DNA of 56,108 nucleotides from Bacteriovoracaceae bacterium (GTDB lineage: Bacteria; Bdellovibrionota; Bacteriovoracia; Bacteriovoracales; Bacteriovoracaceae). Where the stretch lies: the NCBI GenBank assembly GCA_023954635.1, contig JAGSHI010000006.1:1-56108 (forward strand), written 5' to 3'. The translations under genes and the position numbers were made by a program. Below, piece by piece: positions 35,995-47,374 of this stretch. The stretch's first letter is position 1. Each line of letters begins with the position of its first letter. A model generated the notes under the pieces. The model saw nothing but the letters and a program-made list of their open reading frames with translations, was not told the DNA's origin and ran no database searches.

Positions 35995-36705
35995 ATGAAA
36001 AAAATCCTTTTTCAAGTACTTGTACTATCTTTTCTCTTTCCATTGGCGAGCGTAAACGCTGCGGAGTCTGATACTTATGACTTTGCTTGGCTCGATCCCG
36101 ATAAAGAAGTTTATGTCCTTCAGAATCGTAAGTATCGAAAAGCTGGTAGGTTACACGCTTATCTCGGAGGAGGGAAAACTTTATCTGGAGCATTTGTTGA
36201 CGCAACTACTATTCAAGGAAGAGTCGGTTATTTCCTCAAGGAAGATTGGGGCTTTGAGGGAGTCTATGCCAGAAATAGTGGGAAAGAAAATGTAACTGCG
36301 AAGTCAGTACGTGATAATGGTGCGGGAATTGGCTCTAGGCCTTTTCGAAGAATTGTTGATGCTTATATGGGAGGAATGGTTCTATGGTCACCCTTCTATA
36401 GCAAGATTAATACATTTAACACAATCATTTACTATGACTGGATCTTTGGTGTTGGATACGGACAACTTCAAGAAACAAATAACTTAAATGAATTTCAACA
36501 AGTTGGTTTTGACGGAAGTGAAACCCTTACACATAACGGGTATATGTGGAATGTTGGCTTGTTGATTTATATAAATCAAAACTTTAGTTTGAGAACAGAT
36601 ATTCAAGCCTTTCATTATAAGGCAATGTCTCCATCTACAAATAACTCTGCAGAAGTTTGGAATGATAATTTTGACTTAAGTTTTTCTTTTGGGTTTAACT
36701 TCTAG
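35995..36705 (+). CDS. Outer-membrane beta-barrel protein of the Glt-like cluster
   Basis: A signal peptide (MKKILFQVLVLSFLFPLASVNA, cleavage before AESD) precedes a compact barrel. Its strands include RLHAYLGGGKTLSGAF, IQGRVGYFLKEDWGFEGVYARNS, VDAYMGGMVLWSPFYSKINTFNTIIYYDWIFGVGYGQLQE, YMWNVGLLIYINQNFSLRTDIQAF and the terminal FDLSFSFGFNF with a C-terminal Phe. This is the pattern of the outer-membrane beta-barrel family found beside gliding genes in myxobacteria (GltA/GltB type). ATG 35995 has SD AGGA (35984-35987); an in-frame ATT/TTG region upstream lies in the leader hairpin. 236 residues. First gene of a six-gene plus-strand run. Confidence 0.8.
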   Translation: MKKILFQVLVLSFLFPLASVNAAESDTYDFAWLDPDKEVYVLQNRKYRKAGRLHAYLGGGKTLSGAFVDATTIQGRVGYFLKEDWGFEGVYARNSGKENVTAKSVRDNGAGIGSRPFRRIVDAYMGGMVLWSPFYSKINTFNTIIYYDWIFGVGYGQLQETNNLNEFQQVGFDGSETLTHNGYMWNVGLLIYINQNFSLRTDIQAFHYKAMSPSTNNSAEVWNDNFDLSFSFGFNF

Positions 36706-36713
36706 GGATACTC

Positions 36714-38129
36714 ATGAAAATTAAAACAGTGACATTGATCTTAGTGCTATTGTTTTCTCTCCAGAGTAAGGCCGGAGTTGATAGCGCATGGAAAAGTTTA
36801 ATCAATTCTAAGGGCTCTGTTGATTCATACCCTTCTATTGTTGAGAACCTTTTAAAAGAGGGACTCTATTTTACATCTCTTCCTTATATCAAAGAATACT
36901 TAACGGTTCATAAGGGAAAATATAATAAGAAGATGGATTACTTAATTGATGAAGTTGCAACTTATGTTGGTGTTAAACAGTTTGAAGTGTTACCTTCTCG
37001 GTTTTTAGAAAAATCTAGATCTCCAATGATTAAATATATCTTAGCGAAAAAACTGTTTAGAGTTGGAAAGTATAATAAAGTTTTGAATATGCTTAATGCT
37101 TCAATACCTGCAAATCATCCAGCTAAGCCATACGCTCTTCTATTGGAAGGATCTTCTTTTTCAATCCAAAAGAAATATAAATCAGCTATTTCATCATTTA
37201 AAGAATGTATTAAACAGTCTGAAGCAGGAATAAATAAACACAATGATAAGAATAGAAAAAGACAACTATCAATCAATAGAGACTATTGCGTTGTCGGAAT
37301 TTCAAGAACTCAGTTTGCAGATGGTAAATATGAAGAGGCAAACCTTAGTTATCTAGATCTTAAAAAGGGAAGCCATATTTGGCCTGAAATCTTGTTTGAA
37401 GAAGCCTGGAATGGTTTTTACTTAAGAGATTACAATAGAACGCTCGGAAAGCTAGTTACCTATAAAGCTCCAGTATTAAATTATGTTTTTAACCCTGAAG
37501 TTGAAATTCTACGAGCATTAACCTTCATGGAGCTGTGCCTTTGGGAAGATACTAAAAAAGTTGTTGATGTCTTTTATAAAAAATACCAAAAAAATCATCG
37601 ACAAGTAGTTAAGTTTTTAAAGAAACATAGAAAGGATTATAAATATTTCTATCTTATGGCCAAGTCATATAAAAATGGAAAAAAACCAGGAAACAATCTC
37701 CTTAAGAATATGGTTGATTTTGCAACTAAAGACCCTGCCTTTTTAGAGCTATATGACAATTTTCACAATGGTAGAAAAGAATTAGAATTTGTTCGAAAAA
37801 TGAAGAATAAATCCTTTGCCAGAATCTTGAATATCAATCTAAAAGAATCTCTTTTATTACATAGAAATCTTATCGGTGCTTATGTGAGAAAAAGTCTTCA
37901 TATGATGGCACGAATGGTTAATAAAACGATGCAAGACATGAGTTATATAAAACTAGAAGTTATTAGATATAAGAAAAGACAACTTTATCAACTGGCCAAT
38001 AATAGGTCCAGAGGTGATATTCGAAATCTACAACGGACTGATAAGCAGTACTTCTGGGACTTTAATGGAGAGTTCTGGGCAGATGAGTTGGGGGATTATG
38101 TATTTTCCCTAAAGTCGGAGTGTAAATAA
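36714..38129 (+). CDS. Exported TPR-like protein of the Glt-like cluster
   Basis: A signal peptide MKIKTVTLILVLLFSLQSKA leads a 471-residue helical protein. Repeats of TPR character are seen in the first half (MIKYILAKKLFRVGKYNKVLNMLNASIP, AKPYALLLEGSSFSIQKKYKSAISSFKECI, DYCVVGISRTQFADGKYEEANLSYLDL, EILFEEAWNGFYLRDYNRTLGKLVTY). The second half is a basic helical region that ends with QYFWDFNGEFWADELGDYVFSLKSEC. Position and layout suggest a periplasmic component similar to GltC. The identity with any one Myxococcus protein is not certain. Confidence 0.7.
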   Translation: MKIKTVTLILVLLFSLQSKAGVDSAWKSLINSKGSVDSYPSIVENLLKEGLYFTSLPYIKEYLTVHKGKYNKKMDYLIDEVATYVGVKQFEVLPSRFLEKSRSPMIKYILAKKLFRVGKYNKVLNMLNASIPANHPAKPYALLLEGSSFSIQKKYKSAISSFKECIKQSEAGINKHNDKNRKRQLSINRDYCVVGISRTQFADGKYEEANLSYLDLKKGSHIWPEILFEEAWNGFYLRDYNRTLGKLVTYKAPVLNYVFNPEVEILRALTFMELCLWEDTKKVVDVFYKKYQKNHRQVVKFLKKHRKDYKYFYLMAKSYKNGKKPGNNLLKNMVDFATKDPAFLELYDNFHNGRKELEFVRKMKNKSFARILNINLKESLLLHRNLIGAYVRKSLHMMARMVNKTMQDMSYIKLEVIRYKKRQLYQLANNRSRGDIRNLQRTDKQYFWDFNGEFWADELGDYVFSLKSECK

Positions 38130-38131
38130 CC

Positions 38132-41014
38132 ATGAGTGGCAAAAAGATTTTTATATTAGCATTTTTGTTTTTTTCTTTTGCTTCAATAGCAACTGCCAAT
38201 GTGTCTCAAAGACGATCTGCTCTTATTGCAGTTATTAATGAAGAGTTAAAAGAAATTACAAGATTAAATAAGCAAACTCGAAGTGGTAATCCTCGATTAT
38301 TGTTGAGAATGGCAGAACTTTTACTCGAAAAAGCAAGACATATAAAAGAGCAAGAGAATGAAAAATATTTAAGTTTATCCTCTAAGAAGAGAAGAAGAGT
38401 TTCAAAAGCTCGTTACTTTAAAAACTCTAATAAATTCTTTTCACAGGCCCAGAAAACTTGCCTTTTCATTTTAAAGAGACACAAAAGGTTCAAAGATAAG
38501 GGTCATGTCTATTATATTTTGGCGTACAACGCAAAAGAATTTCAACAACATAAAAAATCGAAGAGATATTTTAAGTATGCTATCAAGAACTCCAGACGTG
38601 GCGGTGAAGTAAACTCAAAGTCAAAGCTTGCGTTAGCAGAAATTTATTATAATGAGCAAAGATATTCAAAAGCGATTCCTCTCTATCTACAATCCCTTAA
38701 GAAGATTGATGATAAGTGGTATACAAAGGACACATTTAATCTCGCTTGGTGTTACTTTCGAGTCAAAAAAATTAAAACAGCAATTTCATTAATGAAAAAG
38801 GTTTACGCTAAAAGTAAAAATTCAAAATATGTAGATATGAGTCAGCAAGTTGAACGTGATATTGCATACTTTTATACAGAGGATGGAAACACTAAGCAGG
38901 CCATCGCATTTTATAAGAAACGTGGTGGAGATATTTCTAAAAACCTTCTTAAGGTTTCTGCTTATTTAATTAATCAAGGGAAATTTGCAGCTGCAGAGAA
39001 AACATTAACAGAGACGTTAAAATTTAAAAATTCAGAGGTTTTATTAGTCAAGATCCATTATCAATTGATGAACTTATATGATCGCTTTGGAAAGTATGGA
39101 AAACATTTAAAATCATCTAAACTTCTATTTTCATATCATCAAAAGGGAATGTTGGATAAAAACCAAGTTGAATCTTTAAAGTATAATGTTCAAAAGATGG
39201 CCGCTCTTTTACAAAAACAAGCCGCTGCAAAAAGATATGAAACTCAGCCTGCCATAAGAAAAAGAAAAGCAAAACAAGCAGAATCTTATTTTGGAATTCT
39301 TGCAAACCTTAATCCTTCGAGAGGTTTCTTGGCTAACTTTCATGCAGCAGAAACAAACTTTGCAGCAAAAAACTTTAACAGAGCTGCTCAACTTTATGCT
39401 CAGTCATATAATGAAGCAGGCGTAGCAGGTAGCAAAAGAATAGTAAAATTGTCCCTTAATGGTTTAATGGCCAGTTTGGGTTCCAAAGGTGTTTCTAAGG
39501 CAACAAAGGAGAGGTATCTTGAGTCAGCCTATTTGGCGACAATTAAAGAAGAACCATCCTCTAAGAAAGCATATAAGATTTATCAACGGCTCTTTACTTC
39601 ATATATGGATAAAAAAGATGTTCCAAATGCTGAAAAAACCCTATTGAAATTTAAGAAAAATTTTCCAAAGGATTACAAAACTCAAGAAGCGATGCTTGCA
39701 AGAATTATGGAGCATTATAAAAAAGATAATGATGAAGGCATGATTAAGCATTATGTCCAAAGAATTAATCGTGGTGAGTTTAAAGTCTCTAAAAAATATG
39801 CCAAGAAACTGAAGATGCTACTTTTAACAATGCAGTTTGATGATGTAGAGAAGTTAAATAGTACAGGTGATAAAAAACAAGCGCTCATTGGCTATGTTGA
39901 AATCTACAAAGCTTCAGAGTCATCAAAAGATGCTAGAAAGAATGCCGCTTATAATATTGCAACTCTCTTTTATCAACTTGGTGATGCTGAGAGAACATAT
40001 AAGTGGGCTAAGGAATCGTTAAATCTTATGAAGTCTAGAGACGTCAGTCGATTTGAGTCATCGTTTCTTGCCATGGCAACAGATATATTTGGAAAAAGAA
40101 GATATAAAGAAGCAGGGAGCTTGAATTCCATTCTTCTCAATAAGGTCTGTAGACGGAGATCTCGTAATAAAAAAAGTTTCTTCAAAAACGCCCATGTGAT
40201 TTTCTTGGCAGACGGAAACTTGGCGGCAGCTAAAAACATAGTCGCAAAAGGGAAGAGATGTAAAATTCCGGCACGGACTATTAGGGAAGGAAATATCGAT
40301 CTTATTAAATACATGACCACAAAGAAAAAATGGGGTCAATTAAAAGACTTAATTGAAAAAGTTAAAAAGGATAGTCGAATTCAGGTTCATCTCATTCATC
40401 CAATGGCTGAATTGAGTGATGCTTTAAAGCAAACAGGTAGAATGGATGATGCTAAAAAAGTTGAAGTTGATTTACTTAGTTACTATCGGAAAAACAAGTC
40501 TAGAAAGAATGACATACCTCTAGAAGGATTAGATGCTGTAGCTGATATCAAAATGAAAAGCTTAAGAATCGAGGCTACAAACCTGAGTAGCATTAAATTA
40601 AGATTTCCCGAAAAACTCTATAATCAGTCCCTAAAAGCAAAATTTTCACAGCTAGATAAAGTTACTTCAAAAGCGTTGGGAATCTTAAGTATTGGTTCTG
40701 GGAGAGGGATTGTTTCGGCTTATAAGCACTTAGTGGAGTCTTATGATGGACTTGGAGCAGAAATAAGAGGATTTACCCCAGAAGGGAAGTCCGCAAGTTA
40801 TATAAAATCATTTAAGAAAAGTATGGTCGATTTGACTAGGCCAATTCTATTAAAGGCCCAAGAATTTCGAAAAGAGGCAAGAAGCCAAATACTTGGAAGT
40901 AAGATTTTGAGCTTAAATAATAATTTCTTTTTACAAGAGAAACCATTACCGATTCCTGTGATGCACTTTTATTCAAGGGGCGCAGTTCTTATGGATAGAG
41001 GAGGTAAGAGATGA
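38132..41014 (+). CDS. Large exported TPR-repeat protein of the Glt-like cluster
   Basis: A signal peptide (MSGKKIFILAFLFFSFASIATA) precedes 930 residues of helical repeats. TPR-like units are visible as KSKLALAEIYYNEQRYSKAIPLYLQSLKKI, DTFNLAWCYFRVKKIKTAISLMKKVYAKS, ERDIAYFYTEDGNTKQAIAFYKKRG, LLKVSAYLINQGKFAAAEKTLTETL and RKNAAYNIATLFYQLGDAERTYKWAKESL. The protein is Lys/Arg-rich. Large TPR periplasmic proteins of this kind (AgmK/GltI-like) belong to the gliding complex in Myxococcus. It starts 3 bases after the previous stop and overlaps the next start (ATGA). Confidence 0.75.
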   Translation: MSGKKIFILAFLFFSFASIATANVSQRRSALIAVINEELKEITRLNKQTRSGNPRLLLRMAELLLEKARHIKEQENEKYLSLSSKKRRRVSKARYFKNSNKFFSQAQKTCLFILKRHKRFKDKGHVYYILAYNAKEFQQHKKSKRYFKYAIKNSRRGGEVNSKSKLALAEIYYNEQRYSKAIPLYLQSLKKIDDKWYTKDTFNLAWCYFRVKKIKTAISLMKKVYAKSKNSKYVDMSQQVERDIAYFYTEDGNTKQAIAFYKKRGGDISKNLLKVSAYLINQGKFAAAEKTLTETLKFKNSEVLLVKIHYQLMNLYDRFGKYGKHLKSSKLLFSYHQKGMLDKNQVESLKYNVQKMAALLQKQAAAKRYETQPAIRKRKAKQAESYFGILANLNPSRGFLANFHAAETNFAAKNFNRAAQLYAQSYNEAGVAGSKRIVKLSLNGLMASLGSKGVSKATKERYLESAYLATIKEEPSSKKAYKIYQRLFTSYMDKKDVPNAEKTLLKFKKNFPKDYKTQEAMLARIMEHYKKDNDEGMIKHYVQRINRGEFKVSKKYAKKLKMLLLTMQFDDVEKLNSTGDKKQALIGYVEIYKASESSKDARKNAAYNIATLFYQLGDAERTYKWAKESLNLMKSRDVSRFESSFLAMATDIFGKRRYKEAGSLNSILLNKVCRRRSRNKKSFFKNAHVIFLADGNLAAAKNIVAKGKRCKIPARTIREGNIDLIKYMTTKKKWGQLKDLIEKVKKDSRIQVHLIHPMAELSDALKQTGRMDDAKKVEVDLLSYYRKNKSRKNDIPLEGLDAVADIKMKSLRIEATNLSSIKLRFPEKLYNQSLKAKFSQLDKVTSKALGILSIGSGRGIVSAYKHLVESYDGLGAEIRGFTPEGKSASYIKSFKKSMVDLTRPILLKAQEFRKEARSQILGSKILSLNNNFFLQEKPLPIPVMHFYSRGAVLMDRGGKR

Positions 41015-41919
41015 AGAGACTCTTTCCTATAATCACAATATTACTTCTTTTAACTTCATGTGGTTCAACTGATAAGAAAGAAAGTAACTCAGGTCAAAAC
41101 CAGGAATTTTCTTGGATTGAAAATAATGATTTTCAAACAGAGAAAGCTATCAAATATGAAGAAGAGTCGGATTTATTTTTTGGTGGGGATAGCGATTATG
41201 ACAGTCTCTCTACTGAATCAATCGCAAGAATGCCTGACTTTAAACTAGAAGCAGTTGCAACAAGTACAGATAGTATTGGGAAAATCGCAGGACTTTGTTA
41301 TCAAAGAAAGTTTAGTGAAGCATCTCAAGTGATGGACGCTCTTTTTAAGAAGTATAAAAAACATCCAGGCTATTGGAATCAAGTAGGGACCTGCTTTTTC
41401 CTTCAAGGAAATATGAGGGGCGCACTTCTTTATTATAATAAATCATTAGGGTTCAATAAAAACTACGCTCCACCAATTAACAACTTAGGGGTTATATATC
41501 AAAGAGAGGGTCGTGAACAAAAGGCTTTACTTGCTTTTAAAAGAGCGAGTGAACTCAATTCGTTTTCTTTGACGCCTATTTTTAATTTGAGTCAAATGTA
41601 TTTGAAATATGGATTTACCCAAAAAGCGAGAGCACTTTTGAGTGCACTTTTAAAGAAAAACTCAAAAGATGTGGATGTTATTAACTCCTTGGCTGTTAGT
41701 TACTTAATGGAAAGTGATGCTAATAAAGCTTTACCGTACTATGAAAAATTATCAAGAGATAAGCTCAGTCGATACGATATTGGAATTAATTACGCATATA
41801 CATTAAAACTCGCTGGAAAAGCAAGTGATGCAAAGTCTGTATTTAACAGAATAAATACGGCAAAACTTGGTGACTCCTCAGACTATTACCAAAAAGTTAA
41901 GAAGTACTTGGAGAAATAA
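41011..41919 (+). CDS. TPR lipoprotein of the Glt-like cluster (AglT/GltE-like)
   Basis: Lipobox LLTSC (Cys17) with following GSTDKK marks a lipoprotein; Gly at +2 fits outer-membrane sorting. TPR units follow at about 90-280: YWNQVGTCFFLQGNMRGALLYYNKSLGFN, APPINNLGVIYQREGREQKALLAFKRASELN, LTPIFNLSQMYLKYGFTQKARALLSALLKKN, VDVINSLAVSYLMESDANKALPYYEKL. AglT/GltE of Myxococcus is likewise a TPR protein in the same gene neighbourhood. 302 residues, coupled to the preceding gene by ATGA and abutting the next. Confidence 0.75.
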   Translation: MKRLFPIITILLLLTSCGSTDKKESNSGQNQEFSWIENNDFQTEKAIKYEEESDLFFGGDSDYDSLSTESIARMPDFKLEAVATSTDSIGKIAGLCYQRKFSEASQVMDALFKKYKKHPGYWNQVGTCFFLQGNMRGALLYYNKSLGFNKNYAPPINNLGVIYQREGREQKALLAFKRASELNSFSLTPIFNLSQMYLKYGFTQKARALLSALLKKNSKDVDVINSLAVSYLMESDANKALPYYEKLSRDKLSRYDIGINYAYTLKLAGKASDAKSVFNRINTAKLGDSSDYYQKVKKYLEK

Positions 41920-42198
41920 ATGAAGTTTTTAATTTTAGTCTTATTGATGATTAGCTTTAGTGTGCTTGCCGCCTCGGGTAAAAGGTCCGGAGTTATAATC
42001 GATGAGAAAAATAGAATTAAATATAAATATAAAAAATATCAAAAGTTTGATTTCGAAGACATGGTTATTGAGGGGGAAACAGGAAGTCCTGGAGACCTTT
42101 CTATTGTACCGAGATATCAAACAAGATTTAAAAATAGATTACCATATAGAAAAAACTTTAATGCCGAAATCAGAAAGGGTGTCGAAAGAATTCGGTAA
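41920..42198 (+). CDS. Small exported protein of the Glt-like cluster
   Basis: A 92-residue protein with signal peptide MKFLILVLLMISFSVLA. The mature part is very basic at first (KNRIKYKYKKYQKFD), then has an acidic-hydrophobic stretch DFEDMVIEGETGSPGDLSIVPRYQTRFKN and a basic end. Short proteins with an xFEDxxIEGE-like core occur next to AglT-type genes in Bdellovibrio and myxobacteria (from memory, not searched). It may be a periplasmic adaptor. ATG directly after the preceding stop; the next gene starts 11 bases later. Confidence 0.7.
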   Translation: MKFLILVLLMISFSVLAASGKRSGVIIDEKNRIKYKYKKYQKFDFEDMVIEGETGSPGDLSIVPRYQTRFKNRLPYRKNFNAEIRKGVERIR

Positions 42199-42209
42199 AA
42201 GAGGAAGAC

Positions 42210-44198
42210 GTGGAAAAGTCAGTAGGCAGGGAAGCCTCACTTTTTGAATTAATGCCAAGGACGGTTGAAGGTAAAGGAATAGTACTTTACAAAAAACGAG
42301 TAATGGTCGGAAGCTCTGATGCTTGCGATGTCGTCATAAATCAACCTGATGTGAGTGCAATTCATGCAGTTGTAGAGCTTACCCCAAATGGATTCAAATT
42401 ATTCGATATGAATAGTGAGTTAGGCTCATTTGTTAATGGAAAGAAGCTAGTTGCCTCATCGTTTGTTGTCGGAGATGTCTTAACATTTGGTCGACAAGAA
42501 TTTGAGTTTCGAAAATATAATCCGGTAGACTTTCCTCCGGTTTTAGACATGCTAGACCCTGCGCTACCACCTAAAGTTGCCAAAGGTCCAAAAAAAATAC
42601 CAACGTTACCATCTCAATCTCCAAGCGTTGATACTGGAATGGAAGAAGAGCTTCCAAGAGTAGAGTACCCACTAGCACAAGACCCCAAAGCAGAATTTAG
42701 TGAATACATTTTTGAAGATGTAGAAACTCTTTATCCTATTTTTAACTATGAAGTTGATTCAGGCTCAGTTGAAGTTATTATTTTATTTAAGTCTAGAGTT
42801 TACTCTGTGGATTACCTTCCAGGACAAAAAGGAATATATAAATTAGTAGGAAGTACTCCGAAAGAAAGAGATATTGAATACGCCTATCTTGGAAAAGATG
42901 AAAAAGTTGACTTCATTAAAGTCGAAAATAATGAAGTATATGTACAGCCATTATTTGGCTATGAAATGCTTTCCCTAACAGATGAGAGAACAACACCTAC
43001 ATCGACAGAACAAGTTGTTCTTGGTGTCGATGATATATTACGTTTTGATAAAGGTGATATTCAGATATTCGTAAGACAAACGGCATCTCCTCCAAAAGTT
43101 GCTCCAGCTCCCATCTTCAGAAGAGATAAGGAATTTCGAAAGTATTTACTTTTGATGTTTATGCTTGTTTTTGCTTTCTTGGGCTCGATGAGTTTTCTGG
43201 AAGTTGATGAAGAATTAGAAAAAGAAAAAGTTCCTGAAAGAATTGCTACGATTCTTTATCAAAAGAAATTAACAGTTAATAAAAAGGTGATTGTTGATAA
43301 AACAAAAACGAAGCCAAAACCAAAAATAAAAAAGACCCCTAAGAAAAAAGTTTCGAAAACTCCTCCAAAGGATAAAACGAAAAAAATAACGAAAGCAACC
43401 AAGGTCGCTCAATCAGGCAAGAAGGGAAGCAAAACGGCTAAAAAGGTTGGTAAAGTTAAAAAAGCAAGTCCAAACAAAGGGCCGAAAAATACTAAAACTA
43501 CTCGTGTAAGGCCAACGACAAAATCTAATAAAAAGGGTGGAAAGCGTTCCAAATCGATTGGTAAACGGGCGTCATCTCGAATCTCAAAAAGTAAAGGTCG
43601 CGTGGATACTTACAAGTCTTTCGATTTTAAATCTACCGTTAGTTCTTTATTAACTAAGGGTGGAAGTACAAAAAGTGCTAGGGCCGCAGACTCTGGATCT
43701 CGTGCAAACTTATCTGATTCAGGATCGACCATGGGCGAATCAGCAACAGTACGAATGGCCAAAAATACAAAAAATGTTGGTGACCTAACAGGAGATACAA
43801 AAGGTGTTCTTGATTCCTCTAAAGGAGTTGAGGGTCTAGTGAAGAAAAACAAAATGTTTTTTGCAGGACTTCCGTATAAAACTGTTCACCTCGGTGGGAT
43901 GGACCCAGATATTATTAGAAGAATTCTTTTAGAACACCTTCCTCAATTTAGATATTGCTATCAAAAAGAACTTGATAGATCTTCGGCCGCATTTAATGGT
44001 GTTGTGAAGTTAGACTTCATTATTGGAGCTAGCGGGCATGTAACAAAGGCCGGTGTCGAGACAGTTTCTAGTCGACTACCTGGAAAAGTAAAAGGTTGTG
44101 TTGTTAATGTTCTCAAAGGGATAAAGTTCCCAGAACCTCTTGGCGGAGGAGTAGTGGAAGTCTCTCAACCAATGAATTTTTACCCTAGAAAAGGGTAA
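42210..44198 (+). CDS. FHA domain / single TM / TonB-like C-terminal protein (GltG-like)
   Basis: Modular transmembrane protein. Residues about 25-105 are an FHA domain with MVGSSDACDVVINQPDVSAIHAVVEL and GSFVNGKKL, expected to bind phosphothreonine in the cytosol. A single membrane segment, KYLLLMFMLVFAFLGSMSFL, lies near 312-330. A long Lys/Pro/Thr linker (KPKPKIKKTPKKK and on to about 460), TonB-like, can span the periplasm. The C-terminal 95 residues (IRRILLEHLPQFRYCYQKELD...NGVVKLDFIIGASGHVTKAGV...KGCVVNVLKGIKFPEPLGGGVVEVSQPMNF) match the AgmX/PglI C-terminal, TonB-like domain. GTG start with SD GAGGAAG. GltG and GltJ of Myxococcus have this plan. Confidence 0.85.
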   Translation: MEKSVGREASLFELMPRTVEGKGIVLYKKRVMVGSSDACDVVINQPDVSAIHAVVELTPNGFKLFDMNSELGSFVNGKKLVASSFVVGDVLTFGRQEFEFRKYNPVDFPPVLDMLDPALPPKVAKGPKKIPTLPSQSPSVDTGMEEELPRVEYPLAQDPKAEFSEYIFEDVETLYPIFNYEVDSGSVEVIILFKSRVYSVDYLPGQKGIYKLVGSTPKERDIEYAYLGKDEKVDFIKVENNEVYVQPLFGYEMLSLTDERTTPTSTEQVVLGVDDILRFDKGDIQIFVRQTASPPKVAPAPIFRRDKEFRKYLLLMFMLVFAFLGSMSFLEVDEELEKEKVPERIATILYQKKLTVNKKVIVDKTKTKPKPKIKKTPKKKVSKTPPKDKTKKITKATKVAQSGKKGSKTAKKVGKVKKASPNKGPKNTKTTRVRPTTKSNKKGGKRSKSIGKRASSRISKSKGRVDTYKSFDFKSTVSSLLTKGGSTKSARAADSGSRANLSDSGSTMGESATVRMAKNTKNVGDLTGDTKGVLDSSKGVEGLVKKNKMFFAGLPYKTVHLGGMDPDIIRRILLEHLPQFRYCYQKELDRSSAAFNGVVKLDFIIGASGHVTKAGVETVSSRLPGKVKGCVVNVLKGIKFPEPLGGGVVEVSQPMNFYPRKG

Positions 44199-44246
44199 AT
44201 AGTAAATATTTATAAAATCTGCCAACCAATTGTGCATTTCATCCCT

Positions 44247-44272
44247 AAGGCCTTGCTATTTTGTAGGGCCTT
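44247..44272 (+). terminator. Weak terminator-like hairpin after the Glt-like operon
   Basis: AAGGCC (44247-44252) pairs with GGCCTT (44267-44272) over a 14-base loop; an alternative CCCTA/TAGGG helix (44243-44247 with 44264-44268) overlaps it. Only a TTTAT run follows. It lies between the FHA gene and the promoter of the next gene. Confidence 0.3.
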
Positions 44273-44314
44273 TATCTACCTAAGTATCTGATTTTTCAAC
44301 TATATGAATTTCTT

Positions 44315-44343
44315 TTTAGTCCTATTTTGATTTGGCCTTATAA
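44315..44343 (+). promoter_or_regulatory. Promoter of the 44364 membrane-protein gene
   Basis: A perfect -10 TATAAT at 44338-44343 has only a poor -35 (TTAGTC, 44315-44320) 17 bases before it. The start would fall near 44350, leaving a very short leader with SD AAGGAG (44351-44356) before ATG 44364. Confidence 0.5.
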
Positions 44344-44363
44344 TATTTAACAAGGAGCAACAA

Positions 44364-44909
44364 ATGAGACTTTTGATCAATTCTGGGATCAGTCCATTAA
44401 AATTAATACTCGTAATCCTCTTTTTCATTCTGGGATTAGGTGAGTTCTATGATGGTGTCTACGACGTTGGAGACTACGCCGTTCCGTTGCTACTTTGTTT
44501 AATGCTCAATGATGTTTACATGAATATAAAACGTCTAAAGGAAAATCCAGGATTAGTACCAAAACAAAAACCAGAAGTCGTAAAAAAGCCCAAATTTGAG
44601 AGACTAAAATTAATGTTCAAGGATGTTTGGTACTCAGGTTCGTCTAAAGATATGAAAACCAATGAAAAGGCCTTGAAGATTATTATGAACAATATCTTCT
44701 TTATCCTTTTTCTAAGTCCCATCTTCATGGAATTTTTTGGAATTGAGTATGTCATTAAAACAGATGTATTTAAGATAGGGGTTATTGTCTGGTCTGGTGC
44801 ATTTATGGGTGTCAGTATTGTGGACTTTAGGAAATCTCTAAAAATAACAAAGTTAATCTACTGTAATCTCGCTTTCTTTATTCTTGTAGGAAGTCTTTTA
44901 ATTCTCTAG
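44364..44909 (+). CDS. Integral membrane protein of unknown function
   Basis: No family recognised. The 181 residues hold about five membrane segments (LKLILVILFFILGLGEF, YAVPLLLCLMLNDVYM, IIMNNIFFILFLSPIFMEFFG, FKIGVIVWSGAFMGVSIV, LIYCNLAFFILVGSLLIL). A basic cytosolic loop (about residues 58-100, KQKPEVVKKPKFERLKLMFKD) lies between the second and third. It has its own promoter and strong SD (AAGGAG) and sits between the two halves of the Glt/Agl cluster, ending 10 bases from the convergent aglS-like stop. A role in the machine is possible but only by location. Confidence 0.65.
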   Translation: MRLLINSGISPLKLILVILFFILGLGEFYDGVYDVGDYAVPLLLCLMLNDVYMNIKRLKENPGLVPKQKPEVVKKPKFERLKLMFKDVWYSGSSKDMKTNEKALKIIMNNIFFILFLSPIFMEFFGIEYVIKTDVFKIGVIVWSGAFMGVSIVDFRKSLKITKLIYCNLAFFILVGSLLIL

Positions 44910-44919
44910 ACAGTACTTC

Positions 44920-45441
44920 CTACTCTTCTCCCAAAACCACAAATTTATACTTTTTGAAACCTGCCTCTGCACAGGTGAACATCACTTTTTTGATAAAGCT
45001 ATACTTCATAGATTTATCAATAATAAGATTTACCATTCCAGAGAACTTTTGTGCGCCTTTAGCAGACTTTTGGATTCTTTCAATCGTATTCTTTTTAGTT
45101 ACGAGTTCATTGTATAGTGGAATAATTCTTCTTCTTCCTCTGTCTAATATTCGACGAGGGTATTTATTCATTTCATCAACAGTTAATATTTTTCTATCGT
45201 CTACCCATACAGTATCAGGGGAGATCTGAATGTTAACACCGGTTGAGTTGATCTCAACAGATTGAGAAACAGGTAATAACACGCCCTTTGGGACGTTTAA
45301 AACGATCCCACTAGAATTGTAACTCTTCAATAAGAAAACGAGCATAATAACAAGGATGTCTAATAAACTTGTGATATCAAGATCTATTGGATCCTTCTTC
45401 CTTCGCTTTCCTCTGTGTCGTATTGATCTTTGTGTTCTCAT
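44920..45441 (-). CDS. TolR/ExbD-like motor subunit (AglS-like)
   Basis: One of two TolR-type proteins of a proton-driven motor. A basic N-terminus (MRTQRSIRHRGKRRKKD) precedes the single membrane helix LDITSLLDILVIMLVFLLKSY, whose Asp28 corresponds to the proton-carrying Asp of ExbD/TolR. A periplasmic domain follows, ending in MVNLIIDKSMKYSFIKKVMFTCAEAGFKKYKFVVLGEE, the usual ExbD C-terminal strand-helix-strand. I start at ATG 45441, 7 bases after the previous stop; an open frame further upstream would overlap it. 173 residues. Third gene of the minus-strand motor operon. Confidence 0.85.
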   Translation of the reverse strand: MRTQRSIRHRGKRRKKDPIDLDITSLLDILVIMLVFLLKSYNSSGIVLNVPKGVLLPVSQSVEINSTGVNIQISPDTVWVDDRKILTVDEMNKYPRRILDRGRRRIIPLYNELVTKKNTIERIQKSAKGAQKFSGMVNLIIDKSMKYSFIKKVMFTCAEAGFKKYKFVVLGEE

Positions 45442-45448
45442 ATATTTC

Positions 45449-45982
45449 TCAGCTTTGGATATTACCAAAAACAATATTACTAAAAAGTTGTCTGACTTTA
45501 GTATCCACACCGTCTTTCTTATCTTTTATGAAAAGAGCTTCATCAGTTTTTCTAAACATTCGAACCGCATCCATTACTTGAATTAGTTTTTCATAGTTAA
45601 CATCAATTCTTGGTTCAAAAATAATTGTTCTTTCTGAAAGAAATGATTTCTTTATTCTAATGAGTCTCGTCCGTAAGGATAGAAGGTCATAGTCACCATT
45701 TTGATCTTTTCCGAATGTTCCGATTGTTTTTGCAGGAACTCCTCTTTTAAGAATCAACCCGTCTTTTTCAAATATAAGAGTAAGAGCAAGGGGTTTCTTA
45801 TTAGAAGTTGGTGGACTTGATTCTGAAACGATCGGCACATCACTAGGAATTTCATATATCTTTATGAAACTAGCAGACATTAAAAGAAAAAAGATAAAGA
45901 TAAAAACAGCATCAAGAATAGGGATTAAATTTGGTCCCTTTGCTTGCGTTCTATGTTTTCTTCTACTTGGTACTCGATACAC
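45449..45982 (-). CDS. TolR/ExbD-like motor subunit (AglQ-like)
   Basis: Second TolR-type protein. The single membrane helix PNLIPILDAVFIFIFFLLMSASF carries Asp24, the expected proton-binding residue. The periplasmic region includes LALTLIFEKDGLILKRGVPAK and RTIIFEPRIDVNYEKLIQVMDAVRMFRKTDEALF. I choose GTG 45982 because SD TGGGGTG lies 6-7 bases upstream and the protein then starts with a short basic tail; a TTG at 46024 would overlap the previous gene by 29 bases. 177 residues. Two different TolR partners beside one TolQ is the arrangement of Myxococcus aglRQS. Confidence 0.85.
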   Translation of the reverse strand: MYRVPSRRKHRTQAKGPNLIPILDAVFIFIFFLLMSASFIKIYEIPSDVPIVSESSPPTSNKKPLALTLIFEKDGLILKRGVPAKTIGTFGKDQNGDYDLLSLRTRLIRIKKSFLSERTIIFEPRIDVNYEKLIQVMDAVRMFRKTDEALFIKDKKDGVDTKVRQLFSNIVFGNIQS

Positions 45983-45995
45983 TATTACACCCCAA

Positions 45996-46655
45996 TCAAT
46001 CGTTGGAAGTTGATTTTGTTCCAAGAAGATCCATAAGTTTTACAGAAAACTCATCTATCTCATTAATAATTTTCTCAGACTTAGCAGCTAAAAAAGTATG
46101 TAACATCATAATTGAAATAGCGGCGAGTAATCCAAGAAAGGTTGTATTCATGGCCTTTGAAATACCTGTTGCAAGTAGTTCTGCCTTTTGAGCAGGATCT
46201 GCAGCAGCAACAGCAGAAAAAGATTGAATCAGACCTTGGATCGTTCCAAGTAGTCCAAAGAGAGTTGAGATGTTTGCAATAAGTTGAAGATAATTCAATC
46301 TAAGTTCTACCTTAGGTATAACCTCCAATGCCGTAGCATCAATTGCATTTTGAATTTGTTGTTGTTTTTGTCCATTCCTTTTAAGTCCAGACTTTAAAAC
46401 TTTTGGAAGAGCAGCAATACTTCCTGAGCAAACTCTAATTGCTCCTTGAATATCATTGCTTAAAATATACCTTTGAAGTTCGTTCATAAAACTAGCTCCA
46501 TCGACGTCCATTTTAAATGAAAGTTTCATAAATCTTTCAAGACTTATGGCTATCCCTATGGCCCAGATAATGAGTATGACCCACATGAATACTCCGCCGC
46601 TTTGGATAAATCCTGCGACACTATTAATTGATGTTGTAACGGTAGTCCCTTCCAT
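45996..46655 (-). CDS. TolQ/ExbB/MotA-type proton channel subunit (AglR-like)
   Basis: Inner-membrane proton channel that forms the stator with the two TolR-like proteins. A first membrane segment is near residues 18-40 (GGVFMWVILIIWAIGIAISLERFMKL). After a cytosolic domain come the two family segments, NISTLFGLLGTIQGLIQSFSAVAAADP and LLATGISKAMNTTFLGLLAAISIMMLHTFLA, with the conserved Gly and Thr residues of TolQ/ExbB. 219 residues is normal. SD AAGGAGA precedes ATG 46655. The 137-base region upstream has no clear promoter to my eye. The gene order R-Q-S equals the Myxococcus gliding motor. Confidence 0.92.
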   Translation of the reverse strand: MEGTTVTTSINSVAGFIQSGGVFMWVILIIWAIGIAISLERFMKLSFKMDVDGASFMNELQRYILSNDIQGAIRVCSGSIAALPKVLKSGLKRNGQKQQQIQNAIDATALEVIPKVELRLNYLQLIANISTLFGLLGTIQGLIQSFSAVAAADPAQKAELLATGISKAMNTTFLGLLAAISIMMLHTFLAAKSEKIINEIDEFSVKLMDLLGTKSTSND

Positions 46656-46792: not shown

Positions 46793-47374
46793 TTAATAAT
46801 TTTCTGGATAAATTTTTCTTTCGATACCTTCAATAAAAGTATGAATTATTTTTATGTGAACTTCTTGCACCCTGTCTGAGACGTTCGATTGAACTATGAG
46901 TGGAATATCAACCATGTCTTTTAGCTGACCACCACTCTTACCTAAAAGACCAACTGTTTTGATCCCTTGTGATTTTGCGAATTCAACGGCCCTGATAATA
47001 TTTTTAGAATTTCCACTGGTTGAAATTGCAAGTAAGCAATCTCCAGATTTGGCCCAACCTTCTAAGTATCTTGAAAAAACAAACTCATAACCATAGTCAT
47101 TTGCAACACAAGAAAGATGAGAAGGGTCTGAAATCGCAACAGCAGGAATAGCTTTTCTATCTTTTCGAAAACGCCCAGTAAGTTCTTCAGCAAAGTGCAT
47201 GGAGTCGCACATGCTTCCACCATTTCCACAGCTAAAGATTCTTCCGTCTTCACTTAAACTTCTTACAAATAATTCAATAGCATTATCCATCTTAGAAATA
47301 TTTTCTTTATCTTCAATGAATGATTGAATTGTTGAGAGTGCTTCTGTGAGAGAGTCTTGAATGAACTGGGACAT
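46793..47374 (-). CDS. gmhA: Phosphoheptose isomerase (sedoheptulose 7-phosphate isomerase)
   Basis: SIS-domain enzyme of the first step of ADP-heptose synthesis for the LPS inner core. Diagnostic parts are FSCGNGGSMCDSMHFAEELTGRFRKDRKAIPAVAISDPSHLSCVANDYGYE, then LLAISTSGNSKNIIRAVEFAKSQGIKTVGLLGKSGG and the C-terminal metal-site region VQEVHIKIIHTFIEGIE. 193 residues is normal. It lies between trxA and the motor operon on the minus strand. A heptosyltransferase-like gene occurs at 19463 in the same window. Confidence 0.94.
   Translation of the reverse strand: MSQFIQDSLTEALSTIQSFIEDKENISKMDNAIELFVRSLSEDGRIFSCGNGGSMCDSMHFAEELTGRFRKDRKAIPAVAISDPSHLSCVANDYGYEFVFSRYLEGWAKSGDCLLAISTSGNSKNIIRAVEFAKSQGIKTVGLLGKSGGQLKDMVDIPLIVQSNVSDRVQEVHIKIIHTFIEGIERKIYPENY

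Follow-up and report, generated by a model that had tools for sequence, protein, structure and literature searches.

The window analysed here, a stretch of 56,108 nucleotides from contig JAGSHI010000006.1 of a Bacteriovoracaceae bacterium (assembly GCA_023954635.1), contains a compact gene cluster that is the predatory-lineage version of the known proton-driven gliding machine of myxobacteria. Six plus-strand genes, encoding a small outer-membrane protein (OMP) barrel and proteins resembling GltC, GltD, GltE, GltF and GltG, converge on the minus-strand motor genes aglR, aglQ and aglS, and all nine are open frames (Table 1). This is the arrangement, strands included, described in an earlier reading made from the letters of the window (hereafter the sequence-only reading). 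The same reading assigned to the motor one TolQ-type and two TolR-type subunits with intact membrane aspartates, and Pfam matches and alignments bear this out. Numbered by the listed frames, D38 of AglQ is aspartate in 39 of 40 aligned residues and asparagine in the other one, and D51 of AglS shows at least 95% conservation across an alignment of 41 sequences. The translation starts are probably ATG at 45441 for aglS, which is listed from 45510, and GTG at 45979 for aglQ, which is listed from 46024.

NCBIfam profiles stood in for the Myxococcus proteins in the comparison. The OMP barrel matches TIGR04565 (OMP_myx_plus) with an E-value of 9.7e-25 and 87 bits, above the cut-off of 60 bits, and Pfam likewise recognizes a barrel in it. 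Its AlphaFold model has about eight long strands, with a predicted local distance difference test score (pLDDT) of 84, and its Foldseek matches are eight-strand barrels of the OmpA/OmpW/OprF type. GltC matches NF033756 (gliding_GltC, 1.7e-34). The match is specific to GltC, as the neighbouring GltD, likewise a tetratricopeptide repeat (TPR) protein, gives none. The C-terminal motif GEFWADELGDY of GltC is strongly conserved; the protein is modelled as an all-helical TPR-like solenoid, the C-terminal end of which is predicted with low confidence, and a fold search with the model returned generic TPR proteins only. GltF matches NF033764 (gliding_CglF, 2.6e-7) across nearly its full length. GltG matches NF033760 (GltG, 9.5e-29) and the FHA profile PF00498, and its tail matches NF033768 with 63 bits against a cut-off of 40. 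The search against Glt models that the sequence-only reading had proposed thus places the barrel above its cut-off and GltC, CglF and GltG below their equivalog cut-offs, and the similarity of these four proteins extends to gliding-specific profiles, beyond generic TPR and ExbD folds. When solved structures were searched by sequence, no Glt relative emerged: AglR retrieved only TolQ/ExbB, GltG only FHA domains and GltC only weak TPR matches. In the FHA domain of GltG (residues 30-80), the usual phosphate-binding arginine is replaced by serine; among 57 aligned sequences, 40 have arginine and 14 serine at this position. It follows from this variation that phosphothreonine binding by the domain may differ within the family.

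The locus is real and conserved family-wide, and is not a new kind of system. A search of genome contigs with a GltC alignment yielded 80 loci, mostly from Bacteriovoracaceae, Halobacteriovorax or Bacteriovorax, the nearest of which (81%) comes from a Deltaproteobacteria metagenome-assembled genome. GltC of the window kind is present in 54 of 59 family genomes. Of the 80 named loci, 38 have the full convergent order OMP-C-D-E-F-G // S-Q-R, and another 25 are truncated by the end of a contig or locus; on this basis, the gene arrangement is far beyond chance. The remainder consists of seven loci with gltG but without a motor within about 3.8 kb and ten with gltF but without gltG. Where gltG is present and the motor does not adjoin it, a close AglR (68-84% identical) is encoded elsewhere in five of six genomes checked, and in the sixth, G023, only a sister-type AglR was found. 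The wider neighbourhood uvrD-OMP-C-D-E-F-G / S-Q-R-gmhA-trx-RDD-polA is largely retained in 20 relatives. A degenerate, non-functional remnant might be suspected from the single barrel in place of two, the missing adhesin gene and the serine in the FHA domain. However, all frames are open, the motor residues are conserved and dozens of genera have kept the locus, which makes decay an extremely improbable explanation.

Genome G106, which has motor pairs at 0.397, 0.787, 1.402 and 2.281 Mb, is taken here to be that of Bdellovibrio bacteriovorus HD100, as it fits the four published sets of this strain. These are Bd0412-0420, Bd0828-0838, Bd1473-1483 and Bd2368-2377 (PMC2797640). The set Bd0828-0838 (L161, 0.787 Mb) is organized as barrel-barrel-C-D-E-F-G-R-Q-S, with a C-D-E-F-G order identical to that of the window and all components matched. 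Together with the gliding-specific profiles, this collinearity upholds the kinship with Myxococcus and Bdellovibrio motors proposed in the sequence-only reading. GltD and GltE are putative assignments, made from their positions, a signal for export or a lipobox, TPR, and matches of the family profiles to L161 genes; none of the curated profiles distinguishes the two from other TPR proteins. The family profile of GltD finds the HD100 protein in the GltD position at 6e-49. For GltE, Pfam gives TPR and weak lipoprotein-attachment matches, and the match to NF033758 (GltE, 7.7e-6) is outscored by generic TPR models. Bd0828-0838 differs from the window set in having two barrels, with motor and glt genes on one strand, whereas the window set has one barrel and its motor on the opposite strand. 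The sequences are distant: AglR of Bd0828-0838 scores 144 bits with the family profile, whereas members of the window lineage exceed 260. The set Bd1473-1483 (L162) has the best AglQ, AglS and GltC scores among the four HD100 sets, but its gene order differs from that of the window and no separate GltE or GltF was found in it. A concatenated tree gives weak support (85/82) to a sister relation of the window and Bd1473 lineages, and does not reject a clade of the window lineage with Bd0828 (approximately unbiased test, p 0.206). The protein in the AglQ position of Bd1473-1483 (L162 13844-14401) is without the membrane aspartate (LAPLLAVM), and the AglS of this set retains one.

Another identity considered for the cluster was that of a Tol-Pal or Exb-Ton system whose partners are unusual, since AglR matches TolQ profiles (2e-17) and the GltG tail is TonB-like. 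However, the AglR-TolQ match reaches 64 bits, far under the 221-bit cut-off, and contig C86 of the same genome encodes a separate TolQ (211 bits)-TolR-TonB/TolA-like-TolB set. Furthermore, two different ExbD-type genes and the GltC, GltF and GltG matches are unfit for Ton or Tol, and the AglR tree places the set among Agl-type sequences, away from the TolQ-type proteins of HD100. This identity was rejected because of the separate Tol set, and is scarcely more probable than decay of the locus; a better match to Tol-Pal or Exb-Ton, which the sequence-only reading had allowed for, was not obtained.

The window set shares AglR, AglQ, AglS, GltC, GltF, GltG, a GltA/B-type barrel and, putatively, GltD and GltE with the AglRQS-Glt machine of Myxococcus xanthus, which is encoded in the M1, G1 and G2 clusters. 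It differs in forming one compact locus instead of three, in having one barrel, and in that no GltJ was found. The sequence-only reading called the cluster reduced, and most of that claim does not hold. AgmU, listed as missing, is GltD (PMC3169522), the position of which is filled by the 960-residue TPR protein. MglA, also listed as missing, is encoded elsewhere in the same genome (G000 contig C180, 4901-5491; 196 residues, 65% identical to HD100 MglA), next to recR and a gene in the place of MglB, for the 167-residue product of which Pfam gives no domain. A recR/MglB/MglA-type arrangement was described for Bacteriovorax marinus (PMC3983030). Full-length GltJ (AgmX, with zinc ribbon and GYF) is indeed not found above the cut-off in the genome, where the best partial match has 31 bits compared with the required 450, and none was found in HD100 either; the cluster is not specially reduced. 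GltH, GltI and GltK were not seen in the cluster, although no search was aimed at them; GltH, I, J and K have been reported absent from Bdellovibrio (PMC3169522). The true reduction is in the number of barrels, one here and two in the set Bd0828-0838.

The cluster probably encodes a complete Agl-Glt machine, a Bacteriovoracaceae representative of the "expanded core complex" kind, which would move outer-membrane complexes for traction on surfaces or prey. AglR with AglQ and AglS would constitute a proton-driven motor in the inner membrane. GltG would be attached to the motor through its membrane and cytoplasmic part and extend across the periplasm with its TonB-like tail, and GltC, GltD, the lipoprotein GltE and the small GltF would form a periplasmic and outer-membrane adaptor pulling on the small barrel. 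Outer-membrane complexes would thereby be moved directionally along the cell, giving it traction on surfaces or, during attack, on prey. By homology with Myxococcus, the contacts would run from the motor through GltG and the TPR adaptors to the barrel, and the movement would be powered by protons: protons drive the AglRQS motor of Myxococcus, two-hybrid assays show AglR binding to GltG (PMC3169522, PMC3858216), and the D28N substitution in AglQ paralyses the machine (PMC3858216). A role in attachment or gliding is suggested by Bdellovibrio mutants and expression. Insertion in aglS (Bd0838) of HD100 blocks attachment, killing and rounding (PMC6561027). The genes Bd1473-1483 are linked to surfaces and biofilms (PMC9140294, PMC2277423), and insertions in Bd1481 and Bd1483 impair biofilm predation (PMC2277423).

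Several points weigh against this interpretation. The assignments of GltD and GltE lean mainly on gene position, and the cut-off is reached by the barrel but not by GltC, CglF and GltG; their counterparts in the HD100 set Bd0828-0838 also fall below these equivalog cut-offs. Data on gliding or predation were found neither for this organism nor for the glt genes of Bacteriovoracaceae. The stage of predation served cannot be read from the sequence because the HD100 sets differ in their stage of expression. The evidence on orthology is split: gene order favours Bd0828-0838, and the AglQ, AglS and GltC scores favour Bd1473-1483. The window cluster is also without an adhesin gene, whereas a sister cluster has one.

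The missing adhesin gene is also consistent with an Agl-Glt-type transporter with a role other than movement, which might move or anchor a surface polymer, like Nfs, or remodel the envelope inside prey. Agl-Nfs moves the spore-coat polymer of Myxococcus using the same motor (PMC3858216), core complexes occur in bacteria without documented gliding (PMC3169522), and the HD100 sets Bd0411-0421 and Bd2368-2377 peak within prey or at exit (PMC12546842). In contrast, the glt order is that of Bd0828-0838, the aglS of which is needed for attachment (PMC6561027), and the locus is nearly universal in a family that includes known predators. A transporter is the less likely alternative to the traction machine, but one with an appreciable chance of being correct.

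The genome has three TolQ-R-R sets: that of the window, one on contig C154, the gltG of which continues on contig C43, and one on contig C34. It also has three ExbD genes of the ordinary type, of which one lies in the Tol set with TolB. The C154 and C43 set (L021/L023) belongs to the sister clade of the window set and has all nine components. However, it is organized on one strand in the order MIDAS adhesin-OMP-C-F-R-Q-S-D-E-G, whereas the window set has no vWA/MIDAS protein. The first gene of operons of the C154 type encodes a lipoprotein-like protein with a low-complexity linker and a vWA/MIDAS domain, matching the NCBIfam profiles MIDASAdhsBdello and CglD below cut-off; the copy in this genome is truncated by the contig end. 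In carrying an adhesin, the set resembles HD100 Bd1473-1483, in which Bd1483 is a MIDAS adhesin (PMC11003981). The AglR tree pairs the window and C154 types as sisters inside the family, next to sets from other families of the phylum, and two concatenated trees agree. The C34 set groups with the Bd0412/Bd2368 lineage.

In a Bacteriovorax clade, the motor appears to have been exchanged. The window-type locus of genomes G014 and G135 keeps OMP-C-D-E-F but is without gltG and aglSQR, and their sister cluster, which was read in these two genomes only, is organized as adhesin-OMP-C-F-D-E-ExbB-ExbD followed by a short GltG without FHA. The ExbB and ExbD proteins are good matches to TolQ and TolR profiles and resemble the C174 pair of the genome that contains the window (44% and 51% identity); the short GltG resembles the C43 GltG of that genome (47%). 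The clade was sampled as ten genomes, namely G014, G135 (identical to G156) and eight others found via named loci, and AglR of either close type was found in none of them. Their best AglR matches reach 96-106 bits (31-36% identity) in four genomes and at most 43.5 bits in six, compared with 255-385 bits in two controls. The exchange is thus shown for G014 and G135 and presumed for the rest of the clade. A limited literature search found no description of such an ExbB/ExbD exchange. The chances are about even that the Glt apparatus is a force-transmission module with an exchangeable motor, in which AglR-Q-S and the FHA-bearing GltG were replaced in this clade by a canonical ExbB/ExbD pair and a short FHA-less GltG in the sister operon, while both Glt envelope gene sets persisted. 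The motor with two ExbD-type subunits and the FHA domain would then be dispensable for the Glt complex, and the paired window-type and adhesin-bearing sets would divide labour in predation.

A 2026 review names three aspects of Bdellovibrio gliding, its motor, its adhesins and its force path, as a major open challenge (PMC13104615). A compact, family-wide machine with intact motor residues, encoded at a single locus, may suit genetics better than HD100 with its four sets. The clade without close AglR types and the sister set with its own MIDAS adhesin allow asking which part sets the function, and relatives with an apparently exchanged motor amount to a natural experiment on the powering of such machines.

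Table 1. Genes of the window cluster and related features in other loci (positions in the window unless a locus is named; aa, amino acids)
Feature	Position	Strand	Basis or remark
OMP, small outer-membrane beta-barrel of GltA/GltB type, exported, 236 aa	35995..36705	+	TIGR04565, AlphaFold, Foldseek
gltC-like, exported TPR protein	36714..38129	+	NF033756 gliding_GltC, below equivalog cut-off
gltD-like (AgmU position), exported TPR protein, 960 aa	38132..41014	+	Position, length, TPR
gltE-like, TPR lipoprotein, lipobox LTSC-G	41011..41919	+	Identity rests on position
gltF/cglF-like, small exported protein, 92 aa	41920..42198	+	NF033764 gliding_CglF
gltG-like, cytoplasmic FHA, one transmembrane helix, Lys-rich stretch, AgmX/PglI-type (TonB-like) C-terminal domain	42210..44198	+	
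Small polytopic membrane protein, 181 aa, between gltG and aglS	44364..44909	+	No family match in Pfam and NCBIfam
aglS, TolR/ExbD-type subunit	44920..45441	-	PF02472, 1.4e-11
aglQ, TolR/ExbD-type subunit	45449..45979	-	PF02472, 9.3e-11
aglR, TolQ/ExbB/MotA-type subunit	45996..46655	-	PF01618, 1.8e-25
gmhA-like sugar isomerase (SIS)	46793..47374	-	Directly upstream of aglR
vWA/MIDAS adhesin genes of C154 type	L021 1-1014; L183 12727-13989; L184 12257-13600; L185 1873-3153; L186 12435-13853; L198 5222-6508		
ExbB/ExbD and short GltG segments in sister operon	L184 3589-6785; L198 11940-15127		
Bacteriovorax-clade loci	L071/L199; named loci L100, L101, L104, L105, L108, L109, L110, L113, L114		

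The gmhA-like gene occupies the same position in most relatives and is regarded as a conserved neighbour, not as a part of the machine. Scans for promoters and terminators gave signal no better than in shuffled sequences. The gene of the 181-residue membrane protein, absent from the gene list of the sequence-only reading, has a syntenic homologue in many relatives and is retained even where the locus has lost gltG and the motor. In two relatives (L074 3406-5417 and L076 11206-13300), two exported proteins separate gltG from aglS; one of the two in L074 is a LolA-like outer-membrane lipoprotein-sorting protein, and the pair in L076 looks similar. In another relative (L122 9995-14326, G042:C91), gltC and gltD form a single open frame of 1443 residues, which is either a natural fusion or a sequencing artefact and hints at a contact between GltC and GltD.

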